Origin: Stenotrophomonas maltophilia
GTDB taxonomy: Bacteria; Pseudomonadota; Gammaproteobacteria; Xanthomonadales; Xanthomonadaceae
Direction: 5' to 3'
Assembly: GCF_023518235.1 (NCBI RefSeq)
Contig: NZ_CP090423.1
Span: 1,364,001 to 1,428,000, forward strand
DNA length: 64,000 nucleotides
The notes under the pieces are model-generated. The model was not told the DNA's origin. It was given only the letters and a program-made list of their open reading frames with translations, and did no database searches. Both the position numbers and the translations under genes were made by a program. Positions 45,024 to 61,871 of this stretch are shown here, piece by piece (the stretch's first letter is position 1; every line of letters begins with the position of its first letter).

Positions 45024-45118
45024 GTAGTCGCCGGGCATGGCCCGGCGCTACCAGCCCCTCTCCGCCGGGCATGGCCCGGCGTATCCGCTCCTGTAGCGCC
45101 GAGCCCACGCTCGGCTGC
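45024..45118. repeat. Cluster of three SMAG-type palindromes
   Basis: Three units lie in tandem: 45024-45051, 45063-45081 and 45093-45118. The first two share CGCCGGGC with GCCCGGCG around ATG; the third uses GCCGAGC and GCTCGGC. They fill the whole gap between the convergent receiver gene and the barrel gene. Confidence 0.8.
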
Positions 45119-45123
45119 CCTCA

Positions 45124-48100
45124 TCAATAGCGCCCCACCAGGTTCAGGTACCACCCGCGGTGGGTGTAGTCGAACCGGGTCAGGTCATCGCTGAAGTCGG
45201 TGAAGTTGTAGCCCACACCGACGCGGAAGTTGCGCCCGATATCGCGATCGACACCGGCCAGCCAGCCCTGCCGGCGACCGCCATCGCGCACGTCCAGCAG
45301 GCGATACTCCAGCAGGCCATGCCACTGGTAGTACAGGTCGTAGCGCAGCTGGCCCGAAGCAAAGTTGGTGGCCGAATCGAACCACGGCCCGGTGCCGCGC
45401 CCATAGCGCACCTCGCCCTCGCGGCGCGCCGCCTTGGCCGCCACTTCCCAGCGCTGGTCGATGCGGTAGACACCTTCCAGCGACAGCACCTGGGTGCGCT
45501 GGTCGTAATCCACACCATTGACCTGACCCATCGTGGACAGGTCATACAGGTAGCTGTAGCGGCCGAACAGCGCCCAGCGGTCGTTGTCCCAAGGGCGGTA
45601 GGCGAAGCCCAGGTTGCCTTCGATGAAGCGCGCGCCTGCCACCGGGTTGATCGCATCATCGGTGTCGGCGTAGTTGAAGCGCGCCGCGATCCGCCAGCTG
45701 TCGTTGAGACGATGGCTCAGGCGGTTGGTGCTGACCCATTGCGTGCGTCGCTCGGCACCGGTATCGCGGCGCCATTCCAGCTTGCTCTGCCATTCGGTGC
45801 CGGGCGAGGTCCGCCCGCCTGACAGGCTCACCGCCTTGCGGTCCACCTGGCCACTGCTGGAATCGAGCTTGCCGTCGCTGAGAGTGAAGCCGGCATTCCA
45901 CCCTACCGCCGGGTAGAAATCCATGCCGAAAGTATGCGCCAGCCCGGAGTCCTGCCCGGATTTGAGGAACTGGCTTTCATTGAACACATTGACCTGGTCG
46001 GACAGGCGCCAGCGCTGGCCCAGCGTCCAGCCATCCTGCGCGTTCGGGCTGAACAACGGGTCGTACTCGCTGCGATCAGTGGACTGGGTAAAGGCGCCAT
46101 AGAAGCTGTGCTGCGGGGTCAGCCGGTACTCGGCGTTGACCTGCGCGGCGGTGCCACGGTCGCCATCGCTCACCTCGGCACCAACGGTGGACAGGTTGGC
46201 GAAGGTCCAGGTACCACCGGCCACCACCGCATCGTTGTCGGCGTAGCGGCCATGGTCATCATCCACGGTCAGCTGGCCGCCTCCGTACACATCCAGCGAG
46301 GTGCCGATGCGGTGCGTATAGCGGGCGGCGGCCAGCACACCGGCTACGTTGCCGCCGGTACCACGGTCTTCCTGCACGCGACGCAGCTCGGCCGACAGGC
46401 GATCGTTCTCGCCGATCCGCCACTCGGCGGTGGCCTGTGCCTGGATCAGCGACTCGCTGCCACGGCGCGCCTCGCTGTAGCGGGCGTACAGGCTGAAGTC
46501 GTCGGTCACGTAACCCAGCAGCTCGGCACCCTGTTCGCGCACGCGCTGGCCGGTATCGAAGCGCCCCACCGAGTAGCCGCCGTCGACCTGGCGCCACCAG
46601 GCCCCGGCACTCCAGTCGCGCCGGGTCCAGCCAAGCTCGCGCAGGTTGATGCGCGCTTCCACAGCTGTCGCCTCGCCTTCGCGCGGCCCTTCCGGATTGA
46701 GGCGGCTGAAGCTCAGGCCGCCGTTGTCGGAGAAGAACACCGGCGCACTGGTGGCTTCGCTGCGGCTGTGTTCCACCTTCAGGTAGGTGCCACGGCCGGC
46801 CTGCAGGGTCAGGTCCGCGCCCTTCAGCGAATAGTCCTGACCGGCGCGCTGCTCGTCCACGTAGGTAGCGCCGAGGGCCACGTGATCGCCGAACCAGTGC
46901 TTGCCGCGCACGCCGGCGGTGATGTCGTCGCTGTCGAAGCCGGTCGGCACCCACTCGTAGTCCACGATCAAGCGCTGCTCATAGCCGTCCAGCGGCACGT
47001 CGCGGCTGATCCGGCGCAGGTTCTCGCGACTGACCTGGGCCAGCGGCCGGGTCAACAGGATGCGGCCCTGCAGGGCGTCGATCTCGTAGTCGGCGCCACG
47101 CACCATCGGCACGCGCTGCTCCACGCGGCCGGTGGTGCGGTCACGGATTTCCAGCACCACCTGGTCCGAGCCACTGAGAATGCTGGCGTGGCGCAGGTAG
47201 TACAGGCTGCCGCCGGTACCGATGAACTCGCTGTGGCCCGGCGCCGTCTCGGCCTGCGAGCCGAACAGGCGCAGCTCGCTGCGCGCATCGCCCCAGGCGT
47301 TGGCACCACGCGAACGCCACGACAGTGCCGCACCGTACAGCGAACGCACGTACTGCGCGTACTCGGTGCCGGTCAGGCCGGTGTTGTAGTTGCCCCACAG
47401 CGCCTGGTTCTTGTCCCAGTCCATGCGCAGGTAGAAGCGGCCCATGCTGTCCACGTCGCGCTGGGTCAGCGAGTCATCGCCATAGGTCGGGTAATACAGG
47501 TCCGGGTCCAGGCTGCGGAACAGGTCGCGCGGGTCGGCAGTGGTGAAGCCGGTGAACAGCTCGTCCAGCGGACGGTTCTGGGTGTCGGCCTGCGCGGTCA
47601 ACAGGTAGCGGCCGCGCGTCTTGGCCTTCAGGTAGAACGCCAGGCGGCCATCGCTGAGCACATCGTCATTGCGCTCGCCACGGGCCAGGTCCTGCCCTGC
47701 CCCGCTGGCCTTGTTCTGGTACACGGTGATGTCGGCCAGGCCGACACCGAACAGGTACTGGCCACTGACATCAACCTCCAGCGTACGCGCGATGGCCGGG
47801 GCATCCGGCCGCTCCACACGCACGTCGAAGGCGTGGTGGCCGATCGGCATCAGGTACTCGGCGGCGAACTTGCGGTCCTGGTCCAGTGGGTAGCTGTCGC
47901 CGTTGATCTTCAGTGCGGCACCCAGCGGAAGGTCGCGGCCACGCAGGCGGACCCGCGAGCCGTACACCGGAATGTTCTGCTGGCGCAGGCCATTGCCGTC
48001 GAACACCTGCTGCAGCAACGACAGCGACGCGGCCTGGCTGGCGTCCACCGAGGTGCCGCGACGGTCTTCCAGCGCGTCACGCAACTGCTGGTTGCCACGC

Positions 48101-48813
48101 TCGAACTCCGCCGGCGTCACCAGCTGCATCGACTGCGCGGTGGTTTCATCCACGTTGCCATCAGCGTCGAAGGCGCGCAGCACATAGACCAGGCGATCGC
48201 CCCGGCGCAGCGGCGTAGACGCTGGCATCGTCCCGTCCCAGTATCCCTGCGACACCGCCGCCACCGGCAGCTCGAAGGTCGCCAGTGCTGCCACACGATC
48301 CGTGTCGCTGCCGCGGTAGACGCTGACTTCCAGGCGCTGGATGAAGGCGGTGTAGTTGCCGCGCACGTAGAACTCGACCGGCCGCACGATGCGGCCTTCA
48401 TCGAAGGCGACCATGCCCGGCGCCGACACCGACAGCTCGGGCTGGCCCATCGCCGGATCCTCGGTGGCCCAGATCGCGCCACCTTCCGGCAGGCGGATCA
48501 TGAACTCACCGCGCACGGTGGCCTTGCCCGGCTCATCGATGGCCAAGCTGACCCGGCGATCCGGCTGCAGTGCCTGCGAGCCGGAACGCGCCGAGGTGCC
48601 CTCGGTGACCGGTTCGTCATAGCTGCGCGAGCGCAGGCTGAACAACAGCTCGCCCTCGGCGTTGCACTGGGTGCCGTCACAACGAATCGGCGTCGGTTCG
48701 GCAGCCGGCGGGGCCGCCTGGGCCGTTGCGGCCAGGCCCAGTAACAGCGCCTGGTACAGGGCGGCGCGCGGCAGGCGGGCCGCACGGCGGGCGGCAGAGT
48801 GATGCGCGCTCAT
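45124..48813 (-). CDS. Large predicted outer-membrane beta-barrel protein paired with an OmpA-repeat protein
   Basis: This 1229-residue protein has a signal peptide ending AATAQAAPP, an N-terminal periplasmic part (about 35-480) of beta and Ig-like segments, and a long C-terminal region of alternating aromatic and polar residues typical of barrel strands, ending in Tyr (GWYLNLVGRY), the usual assembly signal for BAM. I do not see a TonB plug. Its ATG overlaps the stop of the upstream 2057-residue gene (ATGA), so the two are made together and probably act as one surface complex. Function is unknown; adhesion, secretion of the partner, or surface-layer anchoring are possibilities. Confidence 0.75.
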   Translation of the reverse strand: MSAHHSAARRAARLPRAALYQALLLGLAATAQAAPPAAEPTPIRCDGTQCNAEGELLFSLRSRSYDEPVTEGTSARSGSQALQPDRRVSLAIDEPGKATVRGEFMIRLPEGGAIWATEDPAMGQPELSVSAPGMVAFDEGRIVRPVEFYVRGNYTAFIQRLEVSVYRGSDTDRVAALATFELPVAAVSQGYWDGTMPASTPLRRGDRLVYVLRAFDADGNVDETTAQSMQLVTPAEFERGNQQLRDALEDRRGTSVDASQAASLSLLQQVFDGNGLRQQNIPVYGSRVRLRGRDLPLGAALKINGDSYPLDQDRKFAAEYLMPIGHHAFDVRVERPDAPAIARTLEVDVSGQYLFGVGLADITVYQNKASGAGQDLARGERNDDVLSDGRLAFYLKAKTRGRYLLTAQADTQNRPLDELFTGFTTADPRDLFRSLDPDLYYPTYGDDSLTQRDVDSMGRFYLRMDWDKNQALWGNYNTGLTGTEYAQYVRSLYGAALSWRSRGANAWGDARSELRLFGSQAETAPGHSEFIGTGGSLYYLRHASILSGSDQVVLEIRDRTTGRVEQRVPMVRGADYEIDALQGRILLTRPLAQVSRENLRRISRDVPLDGYEQRLIVDYEWVPTGFDSDDITAGVRGKHWFGDHVALGATYVDEQRAGQDYSLKGADLTLQAGRGTYLKVEHSRSEATSAPVFFSDNGGLSFSRLNPEGPREGEATAVEARINLRELGWTRRDWSAGAWWRQVDGGYSVGRFDTGQRVREQGAELLGYVTDDFSLYARYSEARRGSESLIQAQATAEWRIGENDRLSAELRRVQEDRGTGGNVAGVLAAARYTHRIGTSLDVYGGGQLTVDDDHGRYADNDAVVAGGTWTFANLSTVGAEVSDGDRGTAAQVNAEYRLTPQHSFYGAFTQSTDRSEYDPLFSPNAQDGWTLGQRWRLSDQVNVFNESQFLKSGQDSGLAHTFGMDFYPAVGWNAGFTLSDGKLDSSSGQVDRKAVSLSGGRTSPGTEWQSKLEWRRDTGAERRTQWVSTNRLSHRLNDSWRIAARFNYADTDDAINPVAGARFIEGNLGFAYRPWDNDRWALFGRYSYLYDLSTMGQVNGVDYDQRTQVLSLEGVYRIDQRWEVAAKAARREGEVRYGRGTGPWFDSATNFASGQLRYDLYYQWHGLLEYRLLDVRDGGRRQGWLAGVDRDIGRNFRVGVGYNFTDFSDDLTRFDYTHRGWYLNLVGRY

Positions 48814-51800
48814 CGGCGGGCCTCCTGTTGGCGGGCGGCCGCGCGGGTGGCGGCGCTCTCCTCGTTGCGTACGCGCAGGCGTTGCTGCACGGCGGGACTG
48901 AGCTGGCTGCGCAGCGCCTCGAACACGGCGTTGGCACGACGCAGGCCCAGCGCCTGGTTGTAGGCGTGGCTGCCGCGCACATCGGTGTGACCGACCAGGC
49001 TGACCTGGCCACCGCCCAGCGCCTCCAGGCGTGCGGCGATGGCGGCCAGCAATGGCTTGAACTCCTCACGCACGGTGGCCTTGTCGGTGTCGAACAGCAC
49101 GTTGCCGAGCAGTGCGCCACCGGCATCCACGCCGGCCAGCAGCGAGTGCGGATCCCGCACGTCGGTGCGCAGCTGCACGGTCAGGCCGGCGCGTGCGCTC
49201 TCGGCCACCTCGTCCTGCAGCGCATCGCGTACCGCTACGGCGCGGGCAAAGGCCAGTGCCTGGCTCTCGCCATTGGCAGCGATCACCACATCGCCGCCCT
49301 GGTAGCGGTCCACCACCTCGGCCATCTTCTTCAGCACCGGGCGATAGCTGGACTGCAGCTCGCTGCTGCCCGGTGCGAACAGCACCTCGCCCAGCGCAAT
49401 CTCCATGCGCTCGGCGCCGGCCTGCGGCGACGGCGGCAGGCGCACGCCGAAGCTGAAGCGGGTCGGCACGCCCTGCGTCACCCGACGCAGCAGCGGGTTT
49501 TCGGTGGTCAGCTCGGCACCGCCCGGCAACGTCGCCGGATCCAGCTTGATGATGAAGTTGCGGCCCAGGCGCGCGTCACCTCCGTGTACATCGGCCAGGT
49601 GATAGCGGCCGAACGGATCGGTCTCCACCAGCAGGCCTTCCACCGTAGCCAGGCGCACGCCGGGGATGCCCTGCTCCTGGATACCGTCGTTGCCGATCAC
49701 ATAGGCCACCTCGTAGCCCTCGGCGACGCGGGCGATCTCGCGGCGCACGCTCGGTTCGGCTGCGGTCAGGCCCTTGCCGGCCTCGCCACTGCGCTCCACA
49801 CGCGTGACGCCCTGTGCATCCATCCGCAGGCGATGGCCCTGTGCGCTTTCCAGCACGAAGTCATCGGTAAACGTCAGCTCGCGCAAACGCTGGCGCAGCA
49901 CTACCTGATGCATTTCGGCCGTGTCGGAGGTCGACGCGCGGCCATGCACCACGCCGATCTGCACGCCATGCAGCAACGGCGCACTGGCGTCGGCCACCGG
50001 CTGCGGACCTTCGCCGCGATCCAGCGTGGTCGAGCCCGGCACATAGGCCGACGCGGCGAAGCCACCCTGCACGCGCACCCCGGTCAGCTCGGCGCTGTCC
50101 TGCCAGCCGTCGCCGTCGCGATCATCGAACACGGTGCCGAACACCAGGCTGTCTTCCAGCAACGGATCGGCGTCCATCGCCACTTCGGCGGTGGCCACGT
50201 TCGACACGGGGCTTCCATCTTCCGCCGTCGCCACGGCCTGGTTCACATGGGTACCGGCACGCACGCCAGCGCCCACCCGCAGCAGGTAGGTGATGGTCGC
50301 GCTGCGGCCCACAGCAATATCCACCGCGCCGATGCGCAACGGCGACTGGCTGCTGGCCAGGGCGAACGCCCCGTCATCGTCGGCCACCCGCATCGAGCCA
50401 TCCACGTAGCTGAAGCCCGGCGGCGGCGTGTCCACCACCACGCCATCGCGCCAGTGGCTGCCGCCCACGTTCTCCACCACCAGCTGGTAGCGCACTAGGT
50501 CGCCCACCTTCACCCGGCGTGGGCTGGCCGTCTTGGTGATGCGCAGCGCAAAGTCGGACACCACCTTGTGGCGCGTCTCGCAGGTGGTGCATTCCGGCGG
50601 CGGCGAGCCGTCCGGATACTGGCCCCGCAGCCGGTTCAGCACTTCGGTGCGGGCTTCCTGGTTGACGATGGCCTGATAGACGTATTCGTAGCGACCCACC
50701 GGGGTTCCGCTGGGCACGGTGCAGACGATGTCCGCGCCCTGCTGTGCACAGCCCGCCGGCAGGCTCTCGATGCTCAGGCCTGCGTCCGGGGTATCCACCA
50801 GCTGCAGCGGCTGGCGCAGCGCTGCCCGCTCGACGGTGGCCACCAGCGTGTAGCGCAGGCGATCGCCCGGCCGTACTTCGGCACCGCTGGCCGGACCGGA
50901 CAGCTTCTCCAGCACGACACGCGGGTCGGCCAGTGCGTGCTCGGTGCTGCAGTCGCCGCTGCAGGTCGGCGTGTCACCGCCACTGCCCAGCACCGCATTG
51001 CGGACACTGCCGCTGGCCTGCGCATTGACCACCGCGCGATACCCCAGCGTGTAGGTGCCCGGGGCCGTTGCGGCCGGCAGCGTGCATACCAGCGGGTTGG
51101 CGCCGTTGCAGGTGAACGGACCGGGCTGGGTGACCGCCTGCAGGTCCAGGCCACGGCCGAGCGTATCGGTCAGGGTGACCACATCGGCGGTCTGCGAATT
51201 GGCCACGGTCACTTCCACCGTGTAGTCCACCGCATCGCCGATATCGACCGGGGCCACGGTGGCCGACTGCTTGCGGTAGGTCACCACGGCCGCCAGCACC
51301 GGCGTGGTGGTGCCGCAGTTGCTGGTGCAGGTGGTGACGCCCGTGCCGCCACCCAGGACCGCATTGCTGACGCTGCCCTTGGCCTGGGCGTTCACCGTGG
51401 CGGTGTAGTTCACCGTGTAGGTGCCCGGCACGGTGCCGGCCGGCAGCGTGCACACCAGCGGGTTGGCCGCATTGCAGCTGAAGCCCTGGCTGGCGGTCAC
51501 CGCACCGAAGTCCAGGCCGGTGCCCATGGTGTCGGTCAGGGTGAACACTGCCGTGGTGCGCGAGTTGCTGACCACTGCGGTGAGCGTGTAGGCGATGCTG
51601 TCGCCCACCTTCACCGCACCGGCTGCCGCCGAGGTCTTGCGGTAATCGATGGCGCTGCCGGTCACCGGCGTGGTGGTACCGCAGTTGGCGGTACACGAGG
51701 GGTTGTCGCCACCGCTGCCAAGCACGGCGTTGGTGACCTGGCCGGTGGCCTGCGCGTTCACCACGGCGGTGTAGGACAGGCTGTAGCTACCCGGCACGGT

Positions 51801-54800
51801 CCCGGCCGGCAGGGTGCACACCAGCGGATTGGCGGCATTGCAGGTGTAGGCGCCCGCGCTGGTCACCGCACCGAAGTCCAGGCCGGTGCCCAGGGTATCG
51901 GTCAGGGTCACCACGTCGGTAGTGCGCGAGTTGGTCACCACCGTGGTCAGGGTATAGGTCAGCCGATCACCCACGGCGACCGGGCCGGTGCTGTTCACCG
52001 ACTTGGCATAGCTCACGCCCGGCGTCGCCACCGGCGTGGTGGTATCGCAGTTCACGCTGCACGACGGGTTGTCGGTGCCACTGCCGAGTACGGCGTTGCG
52101 CACGCTGCCGCTGGCCTGTGCGTTGACGGTGGCGCCATAGGTGAGGCTGTAGGTGCCCGGCACGGTGCCGGCCGGCAGCGTGCACACCAGTGGATTGGCG
52201 GCGTTGCAGGTGAAGTTGCCCGCGCTGCTGACACCAGCGAAGTCCAGGCCACTGCCCAGGGTATCGGTCAGCGTGACCACGGCGCTGGTGCGCGCGCGCG
52301 TCACCGTTGCCGTCAGGGTGTAGTCGATGCGGTCACCCACGCGCACCGGGCCGCCGGTGGAGGCCTGTTTGGCGTAGACCACCTGCGCGCTGGCCATCGG
52401 CGTGGTGGTATCGCAAGCGCCCACGCAGGACGGGTTGTCGGTGCCGCTGGGCACCACCGCGTTGCGCACTTGGCCGCTGGCCTGCACGTTGACCACGCCG
52501 GTGTAGGAGAACGCATAGCTGCCCGGCACGGTACCGGCCGGCAGCGTGCAGACCAGCGGATTGCCCGGCACGCAGCTGAAGCTGCCGGCGCTGGTGATGC
52601 TGCCGAAGTCCAGGCCGGTGCCCAGCGTATCGGTCAGCGTGGTCACCGCCGTGGTGCGCGAATCGGCCACCAGCACGGTCACCGTGTAGGCCACGCTGTC
52701 ACCGATGGCAACCGGACCGGCGGTGCTGCTGGCCTTGGACACCGAGATGCGCGGCACCGCCACCGGCGTGGTGGTGGTGCAGCTGCCGCTGCAGGTGGGC
52801 GTATCGGTACCGGTGCCGACCACGGTGTTGACCACCTGCCCGCTGGCCTGCGCATTGACCGTGGCTGTGTAGCCCAGGCTGTAGGTGCCCGGTGCGGTGC
52901 CAGCCGGCAGCGTACACACCAGCGGATTGGCGGCATTGCAGGTGAATGCACCGGGGCTGCTGACGCTGGCGAAATCCAGGCCGGTGCCCAGGGTGTCGGT
53001 CAGGGTCAGCACATCGCGGGTGTTGCCGTCGGCCACGGTCACATCCACCGTGTAGCTGACCGTCGCCCCCACCGCGACCGGGCCGGCAGTGTTCGAACGC
53101 TTGGCGTAGCTCACGCGCGTCACCGGCACGGTAACGTCACTGCGCGTGCAGTGATCGGCATCGGTGCAACCCACACCCGGCGCCGGCGGCGTGCCGTTGT
53201 TGAACGGGTCGTGGCCTCCGCCCACGCTGGCATGGTTGGTCAGCGCACCGGTGGCAGCGGCGGTGACGGTCACCGGCAGGGTGAAGGCCGAGCTGGAGCC
53301 GGGGCTGCCCGCGGCGGCCAGCACCTGGCTGCTGGTACAGGTCACATCCTGGCCGCTGGCGGTACAACTCCAGCTGCCGCTCACATGGGTGCCCGTCCAG
53401 TTCGGCACGATGCCGGCCGGCAGCTGGTCGCGCACCACGATGGCCGCGGCCGGCACATTCGGCGGATTGCCGGTCGGCACATCGGTGGTGTTGCTCACGG
53501 TCAGCGTGTAGGTGGTACCGGCCTGGCCATAGTTCCAGACGCCGCCGGTGGCGTTGTTGCCCTTGACCACCTTCAGCGACGGCGCGGTGATGGTGACCCG
53601 GTGGTCTTCCACCTCACCATCATCGGCCACACCGGTCGGGTTCTGGATCTGCGTGGCCAGGCTGGCGTAACGCAGGCGCACGTAGCTGGTGCCGGCACTG
53701 ACCGCCGCCGGCACGGTCCAGCTCAGGTTGGCCTGGCCGCCACTGCACAGCGCGGTGTTGCTGCGCTCGTTGGCGTCGAACTGGCCATTACGGTTGAAGT
53801 CGATCCAGCCGGCCACGCTGCCGTTGCCCACGCAGGCCACCGGCTGGTTGATCAGCGTACCGGCCTGCATCACGGTCAGGCGGTAGCTCGTTGGCCACCC
53901 GTCTTCCTCGCGGCTGCCGGCCTGTGGCGAGTTGTCGTCGCCCAGTGCATCGGCGCTGTAGCTGCTGCGCTGCTCGGTATCAGGGCCCAGGCTGCCGAGG
54001 AAATCGGTCAGCGGCGGCGCCAGGCCGCCGGGTGTGTAGCCGGCGGTGTTGATGTTGAAGTTGCTGGCGCCGGCCGGAATGCCGTCGGAGCGGAACTGCA
54101 GATCGTCCACCACGTGCATGGCGTCGCCATAGCTGGCCGGCGCATCGCCAAAGTCGGCATACGGCACCAGCAGGCCGATGGCAATGGCAGTGGTGCCGCC
54201 GCCGCGCATCGAGAAGCCCATGTTCACCGCCAGGTTGCCCGGCGCGTGTGCGGCATTGTCGAAACTCAGGAAGGTGACCGCAGCAGTGTTGTCGTCGTTG
54301 CCGGGGCCGAAACGGATCACCTGGTTGGCGCCGCTGGTCGACTTGTTCACCAGATAGGGCGTGGCGTTGGCCAGGTTCTTGCGGACCTCGACCACGTTCC
54401 AGGTGCCCTGCGCGCTGGCCTCGACGAATTCACCGCTGTTGTTGATCGACTCGGCGTCGGCCATCACCACGCCGCGCAGGCGGTACGGCGCACCACCGAG
54501 GGTCGAGGTACAGGTGATGCTGAAGCTGGAGGTGCCACTGGCGCGCGCGATGCCGGCAATCAGCTGGTTGCTGGTACCGGTGCCGCCGATGTTGTACAGA
54601 TCGTCGAGGCTGTCGCCGCCGAAGTTGCCGGGACGATAGCTGCGCAGCACGTTGGTCTCGGCCGTGTTCAGGCGGCAATCGACGCGCAGGTTCACTCCGG
54701 CTGCGACCGGCATGTCGATCGACGAGGTCGCGCCGTCGTTGAGCACGACGTTGTTCACCCCGTTGGCGCCGCCCCCCCAGGTCAGCCACAGCACCGTATT

Positions 54801-54983
54801 GCGGTAGGGGCTGCTGCCGCCGGTGGCGTAGGCCGCCGCCCAGGCCAGCGAGGGCGCCAGCAGCGACACCAGGGCCAGCAGGCCCGCCACCAGCCAGCGG
54901 CTGGGTCGGCCCGACCGGGCATCATTTTCGGGATGAACGCGTTCACCGCCCGCGCTTGCGCGCGACGTCGTCGACTGCCACAT
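48810..54983 (-). CDS. Giant exported protein with DUF11-like tandem repeats and C-terminal OmpA-like domains
   Basis: This 2057-residue protein has a signal region (SRWLVAGLLALVSLLAPSLAWA), an N-terminal surface domain with Cys pairs (about 50-500), a DUF11-type beta repeat near 510-610, six near-identical 122-residue repeats (about 621-1350) each with NPLVCTLPAGT-like Cys motifs, and two diverged DUF11 repeats (about 1350-1600). Near the C terminus an OmpA-like peptidoglycan-binding domain holds GNVLFDTDKATVREEFKPL and VSLVGHTDVRGSHAYNQALG. A second, degenerate OmpA-like unit precedes it (ALGEVLFAPGSSELQSSY). It may span from peptidoglycan outward. The ATG at 54983 follows GGGGAAA. A Clp-type site lies upstream. 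Confidence 0.82.
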   Translation of the reverse strand: MWQSTTSRASAGGERVHPENDARSGRPSRWLVAGLLALVSLLAPSLAWAAAYATGGSSPYRNTVLWLTWGGGANGVNNVVLNDGATSSIDMPVAAGVNLRVDCRLNTAETNVLRSYRPGNFGGDSLDDLYNIGGTGTSNQLIAGIARASGTSSFSITCTSTLGGAPYRLRGVVMADAESINNSGEFVEASAQGTWNVVEVRKNLANATPYLVNKSTSGANQVIRFGPGNDDNTAAVTFLSFDNAAHAPGNLAVNMGFSMRGGGTTAIAIGLLVPYADFGDAPASYGDAMHVVDDLQFRSDGIPAGASNFNINTAGYTPGGLAPPLTDFLGSLGPDTEQRSSYSADALGDDNSPQAGSREEDGWPTSYRLTVMQAGTLINQPVACVGNGSVAGWIDFNRNGQFDANERSNTALCSGGQANLSWTVPAAVSAGTSYVRLRYASLATQIQNPTGVADDGEVEDHRVTITAPSLKVVKGNNATGGVWNYGQAGTTYTLTVSNTTDVPTGNPPNVPAAAIVVRDQLPAGIVPNWTGTHVSGSWSCTASGQDVTCTSSQVLAAAGSPGSSSAFTLPVTVTAAATGALTNHASVGGGHDPFNNGTPPAPGVGCTDADHCTRSDVTVPVTRVSYAKRSNTAGPVAVGATVSYTVDVTVADGNTRDVLTLTDTLGTGLDFASVSSPGAFTCNAANPLVCTLPAGTAPGTYSLGYTATVNAQASGQVVNTVVGTGTDTPTCSGSCTTTTPVAVPRISVSKASSTAGPVAIGDSVAYTVTVLVADSRTTAVTTLTDTLGTGLDFGSITSAGSFSCVPGNPLVCTLPAGTVPGSYAFSYTGVVNVQASGQVRNAVVPSGTDNPSCVGACDTTTPMASAQVVYAKQASTGGPVRVGDRIDYTLTATVTRARTSAVVTLTDTLGSGLDFAGVSSAGNFTCNAANPLVCTLPAGTVPGTYSLTYGATVNAQASGSVRNAVLGSGTDNPSCSVNCDTTTPVATPGVSYAKSVNSTGPVAVGDRLTYTLTTVVTNSRTTDVVTLTDTLGTGLDFGAVTSAGAYTCNAANPLVCTLPAGTVPGSYSLSYTAVVNAQATGQVTNAVLGSGGDNPSCTANCGTTTPVTGSAIDYRKTSAAAGAVKVGDSIAYTLTAVVSNSRTTAVFTLTDTMGTGLDFGAVTASQGFSCNAANPLVCTLPAGTVPGTYTVNYTATVNAQAKGSVSNAVLGGGTGVTTCTSNCGTTTPVLAAVVTYRKQSATVAPVDIGDAVDYTVEVTVANSQTADVVTLTDTLGRGLDLQAVTQPGPFTCNGANPLVCTLPAATAPGTYTLGYRAVVNAQASGSVRNAVLGSGGDTPTCSGDCSTEHALADPRVVLEKLSGPASGAEVRPGDRLRYTLVATVERAALRQPLQLVDTPDAGLSIESLPAGCAQQGADIVCTVPSGTPVGRYEYVYQAIVNQEARTEVLNRLRGQYPDGSPPPECTTCETRHKVVSDFALRITKTASPRRVKVGDLVRYQLVVENVGGSHWRDGVVVDTPPPGFSYVDGSMRVADDDGAFALASSQSPLRIGAVDIAVGRSATITYLLRVGAGVRAGTHVNQAVATAEDGSPVSNVATAEVAMDADPLLEDSLVFGTVFDDRDGDGWQDSAELTGVRVQGGFAASAYVPGSTTLDRGEGPQPVADASAPLLHGVQIGVVHGRASTSDTAEMHQVVLRQRLRELTFTDDFVLESAQGHRLRMDAQGVTRVERSGEAGKGLTAAEPSVRREIARVAEGYEVAYVIGNDGIQEQGIPGVRLATVEGLLVETDPFGRYHLADVHGGDARLGRNFIIKLDPATLPGGAELTTENPLLRRVTQGVPTRFSFGVRLPPSPQAGAERMEIALGEVLFAPGSSELQSSYRPVLKKMAEVVDRYQGGDVVIAANGESQALAFARAVAVRDALQDEVAESARAGLTVQLRTDVRDPHSLLAGVDAGGALLGNVLFDTDKATVREEFKPLLAAIAARLEALGGGQVSLVGHTDVRGSHAYNQALGLRRANAVFEALRSQLSPAVQQRLRVRNEESAATRAAARQQEARR
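50935..53123 (-). repeat. Six tandem 366-bp in-frame repeats
   Basis: The DNA between these points is six head-to-tail units of 366 bp, each encoding 122 residues. Conserved landmarks (for example the GGCGTGGTGGT box near 51301, 51665, 52031, 52398 and 52766) recur at that period. High identity suggests recent unit duplication and possible copy-number variation. Confidence 0.85.
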
Positions 54984-55169
54984 GGTTGATTTCCCCGTCG
55001 TCGGCCCTTGCCGGGCCGATGGTCAGTGGGCGGCCAGCGACGAATTCCGCGGGACGGCGGCACACCCGATTGCGTGTCCTGCCGGGCTCCATGGCAATCA
55101 CTTTCGTCCCTGGACCCCGTTGGTCAGGCACCTAATTCTGTGACCAAGATAACACATTACAAACAATTA

Positions 55170-55185
55170 TGTGATGCCCGTCACA
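55170..55185. promoter_or_regulatory. Clp/CRP-type binding site
   Basis: TGTGATGCCCGTCACA is a perfect TGTGA-N6-TCACA site, the consensus of Xanthomonas Clp and E. coli CRP. It lies 187 bp upstream of the giant repeat-protein gene. A -10-like TTATCT (55152-55147 on the minus strand) puts the site centre near -38, an activating position. Confidence 0.68.
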
Positions 55186-55333
55186 TTCAAGTTTGCGGAC
55201 TTTGGCGGCAAGCCCCACGGCCACAGTTATAGCCACCGGGGATGGACCGTCTCGGCACGAATCCGGCACCCCTCCCCCACTTTCCGGCAAAACGCCACGC
55301 AGATTCGGCAGCAGCGACAGACCTGGCTGCGGC

Positions 55334-55579
55334 TCAGGGCTTCATCGCCCCATGCTGGAACGACGCCAGCAACGTGGATGCCGCGGTGGCCGGGGCCAGC
55401 CGGCCGCGGGTCAGCGACCAGGTGATGCGGTAGAAGCAGGTCCAGTAGAAGTCGGCCAGCCACACGGCGGAGAAGCCGACGTTGAACACGCCTGCGGTCT
55501 GTCCACGCAGGAAAAAAGCTTCGAAACGCTCGCCCAGCGGCGCCCAGCGCGCCGGCAGCAGATGCAGGTCCCCGTGGCG
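55334..55579 (-). pseudogene. Truncated gene remnant, unknown family
   Basis: An open minus-strand frame without a usable start (in-frame TGA at 55582-55580) encodes a protein-like C terminus of about 80 residues. It has an aromatic hydrophobic stretch (VFNVGFSAVWLADFYWTCFY) and ends HGAMKP. Codon use looks genuine, unlike the neighbouring sequence. The upstream part is missing, so this is probably the tail of a deleted gene next to the tRNA. I do not recognise it. Confidence 0.4.
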
Positions 55580-55871: not shown

Positions 55872-55948
55872 TGGTGACCCCGGCCCGATTCGAACGGGCG
55901 ACCTTCCCCTTAGGAGGGGGACGCTCTATCCAGCTGAGCTACGGGGCC
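55872..55948 (-). tRNA. tRNA-Arg (anticodon CCT, reads AGG)
   Basis: The 77-nt gene includes the encoded CCA. The acceptor stem pairs GGCCCCG with CGGGGTC (one G-U), the D arm is GCTC...GAGC, the anticodon stem TCCCC/GGGGA encloses CTCCTAA with anticodon CCT, and the T arm is GCCCG-TTCGAAT-CGGGC. Confidence 0.95.
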
Positions 55949-57155: not shown

Positions 57156-58262
57156 ATGGACTGCAAGCGTCTCGTCGCCGCCATGGCGTTCACCCTTACC
57201 ATGTCAGGTTGCATGTGGGCCCCGGGCCAGCACATGCGCTCCAATTCCCTGATGGGTAGCAGCCAGCAGGTTGGCAACGATCAGATCGAGCTGATTCCGA
57301 TCACGCCCAAGCTCATCGCCATGGAACGCGCCGAAAAGAGCGCGCCCGGCATTCCGGCCTCGTTGATGCAGTACCAGCCGGGTCCTTACCAGATCGGCGC
57401 AGGCGACATCCTGTACATCACGGTCTGGGACCACCCCGAACTGACCGTTCCGGCTGGCCCGCAGCAGCAGCTCAGCGCTGCCGGCCGCCTGGTGCAGTCC
57501 GACGGCACGCTGTTCTACCCCTACATCGGCAAGGTCACCGCCGCCGGCAAGACGCCGGCCGAGCTGCGTGATGAGATCACCACCCGCCTGGCCCGCTACA
57601 TCGAAGCGCCGCAGGTGGATGTCTCGATGCTGACCTACGCCAGCCAGCGCGTGTGGGTCACCGGCGCCTCACGCCAGCCGGCCACGGTGCCACTGACGGT
57701 CACCCCGCTCACCCTGGGCGATGCCGTCAGCCAGGCCGGCCTGGACCCGGCACAGGCCGACCTGTCCGGCGTTCGCCTCACCCGTGACGGCACCACCTAT
57801 ACCATCGACCTTGACGCGCTGGGCCGTAATGGCGGCGGCGATACGAACGTCTTCCTGAAGGCCGGCGATCATCTGTATGTGCCGTACCTGGACCGCAAGG
57901 AAGTCTTTGTTGTCGGCGAAGTGAATCAGCCTGGCGCCATGAGCTTCAAGACCGGCGAGATTTCATTGAGCCAGGCGCTGGGCCGCGCCCGTGGCCTGCT
58001 GCAGACCACCTCCAATGGCAACGCGGTGTATGTGATCCGCGGTTCGAACGACCTGCAGGATGCGCCGTCGCAGGTGTTCCACCTGGAAGCGAAGTCACCC
58101 TCCGCGTTCGCCGTTGCCAGCCAGTTCAACCTGCAGCCGGGTGATGTCGTGTTCGTCGGTGCAGCCGGCGTGACGCGCTGGAGCCGCTTCGTGAACCAGC
58201 TGCTGCCCTTCACCGCCATCATCAGCAACGCGGCCAGCGCGCGCAACGATCTGGACAATTGA
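57156..58262 (+). CDS. Wza/GfcE-type polysaccharide export lipoprotein
   Basis: This 368-residue outer-membrane lipoprotein has a lipobox (LTMSGC), the poly-export domain (YQIGAGDILYITVWDHPELT, LFYPYIGKVTAAGKTPAELR), SLBB-like domains (VFVVGEVNQPGAMSF) and a C-terminal helix region (RFVNQLLPFTAIISN) that in Wza forms the pore through the outer membrane. It would carry an exopolysaccharide out. No Wzc kinase or phosphatase gene is adjacent. Confidence 0.93.
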   Translation: MDCKRLVAAMAFTLTMSGCMWAPGQHMRSNSLMGSSQQVGNDQIELIPITPKLIAMERAEKSAPGIPASLMQYQPGPYQIGAGDILYITVWDHPELTVPAGPQQQLSAAGRLVQSDGTLFYPYIGKVTAAGKTPAELRDEITTRLARYIEAPQVDVSMLTYASQRVWVTGASRQPATVPLTVTPLTLGDAVSQAGLDPAQADLSGVRLTRDGTTYTIDLDALGRNGGGDTNVFLKAGDHLYVPYLDRKEVFVVGEVNQPGAMSFKTGEISLSQALGRARGLLQTTSNGNAVYVIRGSNDLQDAPSQVFHLEAKSPSAFAVASQFNLQPGDVVFVGAAGVTRWSRFVNQLLPFTAIISNAASARNDLDN

Positions 58263-58273
58263 CGAGGCTTCAG

Positions 58274-58960
58274 ATGAGCAGGAACGCTCGCTCCGGCCTC
58301 ATGCTCCGGAGTTTCCGCCTGGGCCTGCTGGCTGCCATCGCGGTCTCGGCAGCCGGCTGCGGCGTCGTCAGCCGCAGCAGCGTCAAGGCCGTGCAACTGG
58401 CCGTGCAGGGCGCACCGGATGTTCAGCCCACTGCCCAGGACGTTGCCCGCAACCGCTACCCGCAGATCAAGGTCAATGGACCGGCAGGCGGCGCCGTGCT
58501 GGTGCTTGGTGCAGTGGATGACGGTCGCCAGGCCTGGTACAGCAGCGAACGCAGCATCGTGTTCCTGCGCAACGGGCTGATCGAAGCCACCCACGGCGGT
58601 GCGCCCGAGCTGCAGCAGATGCAGATCATCGGGCCGAACCCGTTCCTCGACCTGCGCAAGGTGCACGAGGGCCAGGTCGTGCAACGACGCTATGACCTCA
58701 TGCCCGGCTATCGCTTCGGCATCGAGGTGACCGGCACCCTGTACCCGCTGGGCACCGAGCGCGTCGATATCCTGGGCCGCACGCTCGAGCTGCTGCACAT
58801 CCGCGAGCAGCTGCGCGGTGAGGGCTGGAAGCAGGACAACCACTTCTGGGTGGACCCGGCCAACGGCTTCATCTGGAAAAGCCGCCAGGCCATCGCGCCG
58901 GACACCCATCTGGACATCATCCAGCTCAAACCCTATTCGCCGGACCTGCAGCCCCGATGA
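58274..58960 (+). CDS. GfcB/YjbF-family outer-membrane lipoprotein
   Basis: This 228-residue protein has a lipoprotein signal peptide with lipobox AAGC and the GfcB/YjbF-type body (GLIEATHGGAPELQQMQ, YDLMPGYRFGIEV, FWVDPANGFIWKSRQ). The ATG at 58274 follows GAGG. It lies 11 bp after the Wza-like gene and overlaps the next by 4 bp. The family accompanies group 4 capsule and Yjb exopolysaccharide secretion; its exact action is unknown. Confidence 0.85.
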   Translation: MSRNARSGLMLRSFRLGLLAAIAVSAAGCGVVSRSSVKAVQLAVQGAPDVQPTAQDVARNRYPQIKVNGPAGGAVLVLGAVDDGRQAWYSSERSIVFLRNGLIEATHGGAPELQQMQIIGPNPFLDLRKVHEGQVVQRRYDLMPGYRFGIEVTGTLYPLGTERVDILGRTLELLHIREQLRGEGWKQDNHFWVDPANGFIWKSRQAIAPDTHLDIIQLKPYSPDLQPR

Positions 58961-59730
58961 CGCCGCACCTTATCGTCATGGCCCTTGGCGCCGTACTCGC
59001 CGGCACTGTCCAGGCGGCCTCTCCGATCGTGGTTGAGGCCTATGGCCAGGTACGCGGCCCAGGCCCACATACCCTGGCAGGCAACGCGCGCCTCAGCGCC
59101 GCCGCCCTTGCCGCCGCCCCCGACGAGCACGCCTACTTTGCAGGCGCCGCCCTGCTGCGCGCGGACAACACGGCACAACAGACGCGCCTGAAGGCTGGCG
59201 TGCTGTTCGACCTTGAGACACTGGCCGCCCTTGACGACGCGCCCGACATCGCCGACGCCGCCGCCCGGATGGCCCGCGAGTTCGGCGCACTTCCGGTCAC
59301 CGGCCGCGAACCGCAACTGCTCCAACCGCGCTCGCTGGAGGCCGACCGCCCACAGGATCGATCGGCACGACCCGGCGACCGGCTGGTCTACCCGTCGCGA
59401 CCACAGACCGTGACTGTCACCGGTGCGGTTACCCAGCCATGCGCGGTGCCGCATGCGGCGATGCAGGACGCGCGCATCTACCGCAACCAGTGTGAACTGT
59501 TGCCCGCCGCCAGCCCTGACGATCTCTATGTGATCCAACCCGACGGCCGGGTCACGAAGATCGGCATTGCGTTGTGGAACCGCAGTGCACGGACCCCCTT
59601 GGCGCCGGGGGCAGTCGTCTACGTCCCCATTGCCGGATCCGCCGTGCGCTCCACCACCCCCGATATCAACGAAGAAGCCGCGCGCTTCCTCGCCACCCAG
59701 GTGCTGGATGCGCCCGGAGTTCCAGAGTGA
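58957..59730 (+). CDS. GfcC/YjbG-family periplasmic protein
   Basis: This 257-residue protein has a signal peptide (MTPHLIVMALGAVLAGTVQA) and the GfcC family layout: SLBB-like beta domains (VTVTGAVTQPCAVPHA) and DLYVIQPDGRVTKIGIALWN near the C terminus. E. coli GfcC is a soluble periplasmic helper of capsule secretion. The ATG overlaps the previous stop and the next ATG overlaps this stop (TGATG). Confidence 0.85.
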   Translation: MTPHLIVMALGAVLAGTVQAASPIVVEAYGQVRGPGPHTLAGNARLSAAALAAAPDEHAYFAGAALLRADNTAQQTRLKAGVLFDLETLAALDDAPDIADAAARMAREFGALPVTGREPQLLQPRSLEADRPQDRSARPGDRLVYPSRPQTVTVTGAVTQPCAVPHAAMQDARIYRNQCELLPAASPDDLYVIQPDGRVTKIGIALWNRSARTPLAPGAVVYVPIAGSAVRSTTPDINEEAARFLATQVLDAPGVPE

Positions 59731-61871
59731 TGTGCCGTAACCGATTGCCGCTGGCTCGCGCCGGCATCGCCCTGTTGAGCCTCAGCATCAGCGCAGCCCT
59801 GTACGCCCAGGAAGGTCCAGCTCCCACCGCCAGCGACTGGGGTGGCATCGGCCTGCTGCAGACACCCAGCGCCCGCATGAGCGAGGAAGGCGAGCTCAGC
59901 CTCACCGCCAGCCACACCTCGCCCTACAGCCGGTACACGGTGGTGATGCAACCCCTGCCGTGGGTGGAAGGATCATTCCGTTACATCTCGGTGGCCAACC
60001 GCCGTTATGGCTCGGAGTGGCTCAGCGGCAACCAGAACTACAAGGACAAGTCGATCGACCTCAAGCTGCGCCTGTGGCAGGAAGGTCGCTGGCTTCCGGA
60101 AGTGTCGGTCGGCGCGCGCGATCTCGGCGGTACCGGTCTGTTCTCAAGCGAGTACGTCGTTGCCAGCAAGCGCTTCGGCGCGTTTGACGCAAGCCTTGGC
60201 GTGGCGACCGGCTATATCGGCAACCGTGGCGACCTCGACAATCCCCTGGGCGCGATCGACGACCGCTTCAAGGAGCGCCCCGGCGTCAACACGCCCGGCG
60301 ACTTCAATACCAGCGCGATGTTCCGCGGCCGGCTCGGTGTGTTTGGCGGCGTCAGCTACCAGACGCCCTGGGACCGCCTGCAGCTGAAGCTCGAGTATGA
60401 CGGCAACGACTACCGCCACGAGCCGCAACGGAACAACCAGAAGCAGTCCTCGCCCATCAATCTGGGTGCCGTGTTCGCAGTGAACAACAGCGTGCTGCTG
60501 CACCTGGGCTGGGAGCGCGGGAACACGGCCATGGTCGGCATCACGCTGCATTCCAACCTGGCCCAGACCAAGCCCATGGCCAAGCTGATGGACCCACCGC
60601 CGGTTGCCAGGAAGCCTACCGCACAGAATGAGCCGCAGACCGTCGCTGCAACCGAGGCGGCAACCCCCACCGATTGGTCATCCATTGCCCACGAGCTGGA
60701 GGAAAATGCCGGCCTGCGCGTGAAGCGCATTGATCGAAGCGGCCAGGAACTGATCGTCAGTGCCGAGCAGCGCCGCTTCATCTACCCGGCACAGGGCATT
60801 GGTCGCGCGGCGCGCATTCTTGATCCGCAGACGCCACAGGATGTCAGCTGGTGGACATTGCGCAACGTCCGCCTCGGCCTGCCGGTGGTCGAGACCAGCC
60901 TGGAACGGAAGACCTTCAACCAGTACCTGGACGACCGGACCGATCTGGCAACCGTCAGCCGCCACGTCGAGATGAATGCCCCCTATGCGAGGCGCTCGGA
61001 AACGCTGTACGAAGCACCACTGAAGCGCTTCGACGGCGCGTTCAACGTCGGCTATCGGCAGAGCGTGGGCGGTCCCGACGGCTTCATCCTGTTCCAGGTT
61101 GCGGCGATGTACGGCGCGACCCTCCGCTTCAACGAGAACCTCTGGCTGAGCGGCACCGCCAGCTACAACGCCTACAACAACTACGACAAGTTCAAGTACG
61201 ACGCCCCCAGCAGGCTGCCGCGCGTGCGCACCTACGTGCGCCAGTATCTGACCACCTCGGACTTCACCCTGCCCAACCTGCAGCTGACCGGCACCAAGCA
61301 GCTCGGCCGCGACCTGTACGGCATGGCCTATGCCGGCATGCTGGAGTACATGTATGGCGGCGTCGGCGGTGAGCTCCTGTATCGCCCGATGGACGAACGC
61401 TGGGCGCTGGGTGCCGAACTGAACTGGGTCAAGCAGCGCGATTTCGATCAGCGTTTCAGCTTCCGCGACTACAGCGTCACCACCGGCCACGCCACGCTCT
61501 ATTACCTGTGGGGTGACCAGCGCCGTCTCATCAGCGCGGTCAGCGCGGGTCGCTACCTGGCCAAGGACTGGGGCGCGACGGTATCGGTGGCCCGCCTGTT
61601 CGACAACGGCGTGACCATGGGCGCCTACGCCACCAAGACCGACGTTTCATCGCGGGACTTCGGCGAAGGCAGTTTCGACAAGGGCATCTACTTCTCGGTA
61701 CCTTTCGACTTCATGCTGCCGCGCTCGACCCGTGCCCGCGCCGACTTCATGTGGAACCCCCTGTACCGGGACGGTGGCGCCCGTCTCTCGCACTCGCACA
61801 GCCTTTACCAGCTGACCTCCGAGCGCGATTCGGAGATCTTCTACCGGAACTTCGATGCGATCGCGAAATAG
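59730..61871 (+). CDS. GfcD/YjbH-family outer-membrane barrel protein
   Basis: This 713-residue protein has a signal peptide ending ALYAQEGP and the YjbH family start DWGGIGLLQTPSARMSEEGE, with PYSRYTVVMQPLPWVEGSFRY and GARDLGGTGLFSSEYVVASK. It is predicted to form an outer-membrane barrel with a periplasmic middle (about 300-420). The start may be the ATG at 59730 or a GTG one codon before. It ends the operon before a strong terminator. Confidence 0.9.
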   Translation: MCRNRLPLARAGIALLSLSISAALYAQEGPAPTASDWGGIGLLQTPSARMSEEGELSLTASHTSPYSRYTVVMQPLPWVEGSFRYISVANRRYGSEWLSGNQNYKDKSIDLKLRLWQEGRWLPEVSVGARDLGGTGLFSSEYVVASKRFGAFDASLGVATGYIGNRGDLDNPLGAIDDRFKERPGVNTPGDFNTSAMFRGRLGVFGGVSYQTPWDRLQLKLEYDGNDYRHEPQRNNQKQSSPINLGAVFAVNNSVLLHLGWERGNTAMVGITLHSNLAQTKPMAKLMDPPPVARKPTAQNEPQTVAATEAATPTDWSSIAHELEENAGLRVKRIDRSGQELIVSAEQRRFIYPAQGIGRAARILDPQTPQDVSWWTLRNVRLGLPVVETSLERKTFNQYLDDRTDLATVSRHVEMNAPYARRSETLYEAPLKRFDGAFNVGYRQSVGGPDGFILFQVAAMYGATLRFNENLWLSGTASYNAYNNYDKFKYDAPSRLPRVRTYVRQYLTTSDFTLPNLQLTGTKQLGRDLYGMAYAGMLEYMYGGVGGELLYRPMDERWALGAELNWVKQRDFDQRFSFRDYSVTTGHATLYYLWGDQRRLISAVSAGRYLAKDWGATVSVARLFDNGVTMGAYATKTDVSSRDFGEGSFDKGIYFSVPFDFMLPRSTRARADFMWNPLYRDGGARLSHSHSLYQLTSERDSEIFYRNFDAIAK

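Follow-up and report, generated by a model that had tools for sequence, protein, structure and literature searches.

The closest described relatives of the gene pair treated here are fibrillar adhesins. In 2025 one such adhesin was described from Acinetobacter silvestris, together with a crystal structure of a single CLIPPER domain (9IFR; PMC12617251), and NR2 adhesins of Proteobacteria usually come with OmpA-like anchors and DUF11 stalks (PMC10952558). How an OmpA-anchored, CshA-like fibre passes the outer membrane is a step for which we found no explanation in the accessible parts of PMC12617251, PMC10952558 and PMC9210967. Here we examine a stretch of 64,000 nucleotides from Stenotrophomonas maltophilia (contig NZ_CP090423.1, positions 1,364,001 to 1,428,000; hereafter the window), in which a gene for a long, rope-like adhesin of this sort (A) overlaps a gene for a very large predicted outer-membrane barrel (B). 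B offers a specific candidate for the partner that OmpA-anchored CshA-like fibres have lacked, and the pair suggests that adhesins may be placed on the cell surface and kept there in a way not yet described. The two genes are laid out as follows.

48810 to 54983, minus strand: gene A, fibrillar adhesin, 2057 residues (open reading frame call and domain scans)
45124 to 48813, minus strand: gene B, predicted outer-membrane beta-barrel partner, 1229 residues (open reading frame call and AlphaFold2 model)
48810 to 48813, minus strand: ATGA overlap of the A stop with the B start (coordinates of the two frames)

Both open reading frames (ORFs), with their coordinates, lengths and ATGA overlap, had been claimed in an earlier note made from the letters of this DNA, and a re-check of the ORFs bore them out. 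The named contigs that best match B come from Stenotrophomonas maltophilia and from metagenome-assembled Stenotrophomonas genomes, at 96-98% identity.

Protein A is a member of the described Gram-negative type of fibrillar adhesin (PMC12617251, PMC10952558). From its N-terminus it comprises a signal peptide, CshA_NR2, GEVED, nine CLIPPER/DUF11-like domains, an SdrD_B-like base, a degenerate OmpA unit and an intact OmpA domain.

54837 to 54983, minus strand: Sec-type signal peptide, about residues 1-49 (read by eye; relatives are similar)
54171 to 54800, minus strand: CshA_NR2 adhesive tip, residues 62-271 (Pfam, E 1.2e-36)
53592 to 53816, minus strand: GEVED domain, residues 390-464 (domain scan)
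50175 to 53588, minus strand: stalk of nine CLIPPER/DUF11-like domains, residues 466-1603 (domain scans and repeat alignment)
50925 to 53117, minus strand: six 122-residue stalk repeats, r1-r6, residues 623-1353 (repeat alignment)
49431 to 50174, minus strand: base module, SdrD_B-like with a long insertion, residues 1604-1851 (profile and domain comparison)
49119 to 49418, minus strand: degenerate OmpA-like unit, about residues 1856-1955 (Pfam and alignment)
48864 to 49112, minus strand: OmpA domain keeping D2001 and R2016, about residues 1958-2040 (Pfam and alignment)

The tip family (PF18651) scores 127.2 bits against a cut-off of 24, and DUF11 is found by Pfam in eight tandem stretches (163.9 bits, cut-off 24.6); when the source genome was searched, all seven DUF11 matches and the sole NR2 match fell in A. 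The large N-terminal surface domain anticipated in the earlier note thus proves to be CshA_NR2 followed by GEVED, and its full and degenerate OmpA units are both recovered by Pfam and alignment. Its six repeats are there but are not nearly identical, the mutual identity of r1-r6 being only 55-70%; the two older copies it saw are also present (17-37% identical to the others), whereas a third degenerate copy, residues 466-622, which precedes the repeats and brings the CLIPPER-like domains to nine, had been overlooked. The 9IFR domain matches residues 991-1108 of A (E 8.7e-19). Its isopeptide Lys and Asn are aligned in register in r1-r6, and the Asp of the xDTxG motif is present in r1-r6 and in 9IFR alike, one column off the published number.

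The A. silvestris ANC 4999 adhesin, B9T28_05395, shares CshA_NR2, GEVED, the CLIPPER stalk and the OmpA end with A, in the same order. One locus of our survey (L077) is a contig of that very strain, and its A-like ORF (2129 residues, numbered from the end) has K715, N806 and CTTC 818-821 at the published places, with the Asp one off. A B homologue follows this ORF immediately on its 3' side. The words 'barrel', 'outer membrane', 'secretion' and 'operon' have no occurrence in the main text of PMC12617251, where the adhesin is treated alone. Streptococcus gordonii CshA/CshB and the NR2-type adhesins have an NR2-like tip in common with A, but the Gram-positive members are sortase-anchored (PMC10952558), and their cells lack an outer membrane. 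The earlier note had named a match to a described secretion or adhesin family as grounds for setting its proposal aside; A's architecture is indeed published, but a description of the partner barrel was not found in the partially covered literature on the adhesin or the pair, PMC12617251, PMC10952558 and PMC9210967 included. Papers on the Caulobacter iron response and on Asaia secretion proved irrelevant to DUF11, containing just OmpA-like table entries or different DUF numbers that start with 11, and in a paper on type XI secretion the match is chiefly to DUF1194.

The evidence that joins A to B comes from their distribution. Among 80 named loci, A stands immediately 5' of B in 78, and the remaining two (L029 and L043) are contig ends, where the sequence starts inside B or right at it; the A gene is broken in three (L028, L054 and L079). 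Of 397 genomes sampled across the phylum, 50 match the barrel, in part distantly or through fragments, and 46 of these 50 yielded 56 barrel ORFs. The base module is found in the ORF upstream of the barrel for 28 of the 56, in the same reading frame for 27 and in the ORF downstream for one (G164), and its last ~80 residues accompany all 56. We considered G164 as an exception to the linkage and rejected it, A lying directly after B there. As an independent control, a search with a single base-module sequence detected the module in 28 of the 397 genomes, all 28 of which fall among the 50 with a barrel. Within a genus sample of 61 genomes, a near full-length close relative of B is present in 31, only the distant type in five and only fragments in two. 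Tip and stalk of the A type differ among species, and base and barrel are retained. The A-B coupling proposed in the earlier note is strongly supported by this co-occurrence survey, and the separate occurrence in relatives that would have counted against it was seen only as two B remnants without a detected A (below). We regard it as very likely that A and B form one functional system.

Two side observations concern the loci of this survey. A record titled Bacillus subtilis SK7B5 (L006) has a B that is 80% identical, plus an A, and is probably a mislabelled Stenotrophomonas-like genome. Three Luteimonas loci carry an ORF with NR2 and GEVED directly after B (L014 13483-15351, L016 6236-7930 and L017 12658-15351), and no NR2 was found in the A sequence available for these loci (that of L016 is truncated where the contig stops), which gives the impression of a tip encoded by a gene of its own.

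The two proteins also occur as one chain. A Pfam scan of four fusions found DUF11 with SdrD_B or CarboxypepD_reg before the barrel in each of them, and the order is stalk, SdrD_B, an optional OmpA, barrel; many fused-type named members belong to Sphingomonas and its relatives, often under the label 'DUF11 domain-containing protein'. In four genus-sample loci of the distant second type, repeat protein, barrel and OmpA gene are consecutive, and in one of these the repeat protein and barrel are fused. The OmpA module itself moves: around the 56 barrels it is placed at the A C-terminus in seven cases, at the B N-terminus in four, within fusions in 11 and in a separate next gene in seven. That it changes place between the partners is good evidence that they work together, and the survey makes OmpA optional, with base module and barrel as the constant core. 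PF00691 is present in A with its Asp/Arg pair; D2001 is kept in 61 of 62 aligned rows (the other being a gap) and R2016 in all 62. In Acinetobacter baumannii OmpA this Asp/Arg pair binds peptidoglycan.

B was modelled with AlphaFold2 from 104 sequences (mean predicted local distance difference test score 80.3, predicted template modelling score 0.77); the model is numbered on the mature protein, and adding 33 gives full-length numbering.

47809 to 48501, minus strand: periplasmic part of B, beta domains and two helices, about residues 105-335 (AlphaFold2 model)
45127 to 47802, minus strand: barrel of B, about residues 338-1229, ending in an aromatic Y (AlphaFold2 model and structural alignments)

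In the model a beta-rich part at mature residues 72-302 is followed by 40 strands when those of 9 residues or more are counted, and by 44 when the limit is set at 7. The C-terminal residue is Y, F, M, I or L in all 104 aligned rows, and Y or F in 74. Porins align on the model with their first and last strands on B's first and last strands, which would fit a single closed barrel. A test for alternating hydrophobicity was passed by 41 of 47 strands in the barrel region but also by 9 of 13 strands in B's soluble part; it did not discriminate, so the strand count is that of the AlphaFold2 model alone. If that count holds, few known single-chain barrels would exceed B in size. No Pfam or NCBIfam family reaches its cut-off on B, a profile of the 104 sequences retrieved no meaningful relative among solved structures (best E 0.56), and a viral structure library gave nothing useful. 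On these points the earlier note was right: a large barrel is predicted for B, a periplasmic portion goes with it, and no TonB plug family is listed.

Based on these data, we propose that A and B constitute one display system in which B is both the outer-membrane conduit and the anchor of A, a reading that we consider probable. A carries a Sec-type signal peptide, so that its path to the surface must cross the outer membrane. In autotransporters, stalk, base and barrel follow one another in one chain. Since the sole regular companion gene of A in the 20 loci compared is a very large barrel, and the fusions are ordered as autotransporters are, B is expected to pass or guide A and to hold its base. 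A would enter the periplasm by Sec, and the NR2 tip and the long, isopeptide-type CLIPPER stalk would then reach the cell surface through B or with its help. The SdrD_B-like base is expected to remain inside B or next to it, and the OmpA domain at the C-terminus, where present, would tie the assembly to peptidoglycan. That B is the export route of A, taken by itself, we rate at a little better than an even chance.

The main rival is that B serves only as a docking or anchoring platform: A would cross the outer membrane independently of B, perhaps by type II secretion, before its base attaches to B and to peptidoglycan. The OmpA and SdrD_B modules at A's base fit such a role, and the two-gene linkage and the fusions would look identical under it; about 40 strands, however, are not obviously needed for an anchor. 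Across 20 loci, once ORFs that overlap the pair in another frame had been set aside, no ORF family apart from A and B is common to more than five, be it of a secretion system or anything else, though a secretion system could be encoded elsewhere. We judge an anchor-only B to be unlikely, yet to be taken seriously. It is distinctly improbable that A is wholly periplasmic or an envelope-spanning strut with B as its outer-membrane foot; the OmpA modules and the few stalk domains in fusions would agree with a tether of this kind, but A has an adhesin-type tip domain, and the open frames of relatives reach 4360 residues, a chain that when stretched out far exceeds the width of the periplasm. Least probable, and disfavoured, is B as an uptake receptor or porin linked to A by chance or co-regulation, which has on its side a 'TonB-dependent receptor' label in some records and an unspecific barrel similarity to porins and TonB receptors, and which we rejected on the lack of any TonB plug or receptor family listed by Pfam or NCBIfam at E<=1, the near-invariant linkage to A and the in-frame fusions.

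Several observations weigh against B as conduit and anchor. Whereas the linkage rests on data (domain architecture, gene overlap, near-invariant adjacency, in-frame fusions, mobile OmpA and kept peptidoglycan-binding residues are all computed directly), contact between A and B and transport through B are what we infer from it; adhesion by A is likewise presumed. The base-module profile was partly trained on the same loci and used at a lenient threshold; the single-sequence control saw the module in 28 of the 50 barrel-positive genomes. The scanned fusions have few stalk domains. In two Stenotrophomonas genomes (L140 10206-10790 and L141 8246-9061) a remnant of B stands with no A detected, perhaps through decay of the system. 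No OmpA module was detected near 27 of the 56 sampled barrels, and six named loci keep the degenerate OmpA alone, so peptidoglycan anchoring is not universal. Finally, the solved barrels listed by Foldseek have template modelling (TM) scores of 0.10-0.19 by query length, and none of the listed matches appears to fit the B model well.

The pair also has a recognizable genomic setting.

45025 to 55341, no strand assigned: A-B cassette, its whole span (missing in four of the five strains compared that have no close B)
55170 to 55185, no strand assigned: CRP/Clp-like site TGTGA-N6-TCACA, 187 bp upstream of A (sequence scan)

In four of the five strains without a close B, the sequence that leaves the window at base 45024 resumes within ~40 bases at 55327-55341, a junction that makes A, B and the promoter region an accessory cassette of ~10.3 kb. 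On the right, four of five loci share just 240-250 bases more (to 55579) and then diverge, so that side is variable; in one (L183) the right-hand cassette edge is not shared. A tRNA-Arg(CCT) gene lies near the cassette at 55872-55948. GC-rich palindromes (GCCGGGCATGGCCCGGC) are repeated at 45024-45101, in the gap that separates B from the next gene downstream, at the cassette edge; they resemble the GTAG/SMAG repeats of S. maltophilia. Beside the cassette, the gene run at 57156-61871 has the look of an export and capsule set (Wza-like and YjbH-like proteins).

The perfect CRP/Clp-like site upstream of A, reported in the earlier note, is present and is the only one in the window, where 0.015 would be expected from base composition alone. 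Six relatives were compared, in two of which the A start used as an anchor was not found; in the other four the site is perfect in two and has one mismatch in two, at a similar distance from A. The conservation supports a putative working site and implies no particular function; the virulence or biofilm control by Clp suggested in the earlier note goes beyond what it shows. Another CRP-like site, TGTTA-N6-TCACA, deviates at one position and lies 31 bp from the first; it is listed in L005 and L007 and is readable in the window.

The pair can be set beside known export systems. The finding touches the database names under which relatives of B are recorded, 'TonB-dependent receptor' and 'flagellar motor protein MotB'. 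For type XI secretion (Slam), the DUF560 barrel family is not listed for A or B at E<=1 in the Pfam and NCBIfam scans, which list no chaperone-usher family for B either; FimD matches B with a high root-mean-square deviation, and because both folds are common we treat that match as a lead, not as homology. SprA of type IX secretion is, like B, a very large single-chain barrel, but from another phylum; its 36 strands made it, by a 2020 account, the largest barrel then known (PMC7463736). Foldseek places SprA complexes second and sixth by E-value against the B model; an E-value of 6e-8 stands beside TM-scores of 0.19 and 0.12, and the TM-scores with SprA span only 0.09-0.19. Neither the SprA family in B nor a type IX sorting domain in A is listed by Pfam or NCBIfam at E<=1, and the type IX PorE model touches only the OmpA part of A, with 30 bits against a cut-off of 600.

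The nearest parallel in organization is type V secretion. Two-partner (type Vb) systems and fused autotransporters pair a secreted stalk with a barrel, the two being either encoded side by side or joined in a single chain that ends in the barrel. The A-B pair is like them in having stalk and barrel, split or fused; their barrels are far smaller than B, and no two-partner secretion, POTRA, TpsB/Omp85 or autotransporter barrel family is listed for A or B (Pfam and NCBIfam, E<=1). Tentatively, and somewhat short of an even chance, we suggest a new outer-membrane display system of Pseudomonadota, in which a single-chain barrel of ~40 strands, possibly larger than SprA, would export long isopeptide-stapled fibres and then hold them through an SdrD_B-like plug or docking module. 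Three forms of it would exist, namely A with B, the same two with OmpA encoded separately, and a fusion into one chain, in analogy to the split and fused variants of type V secretion.

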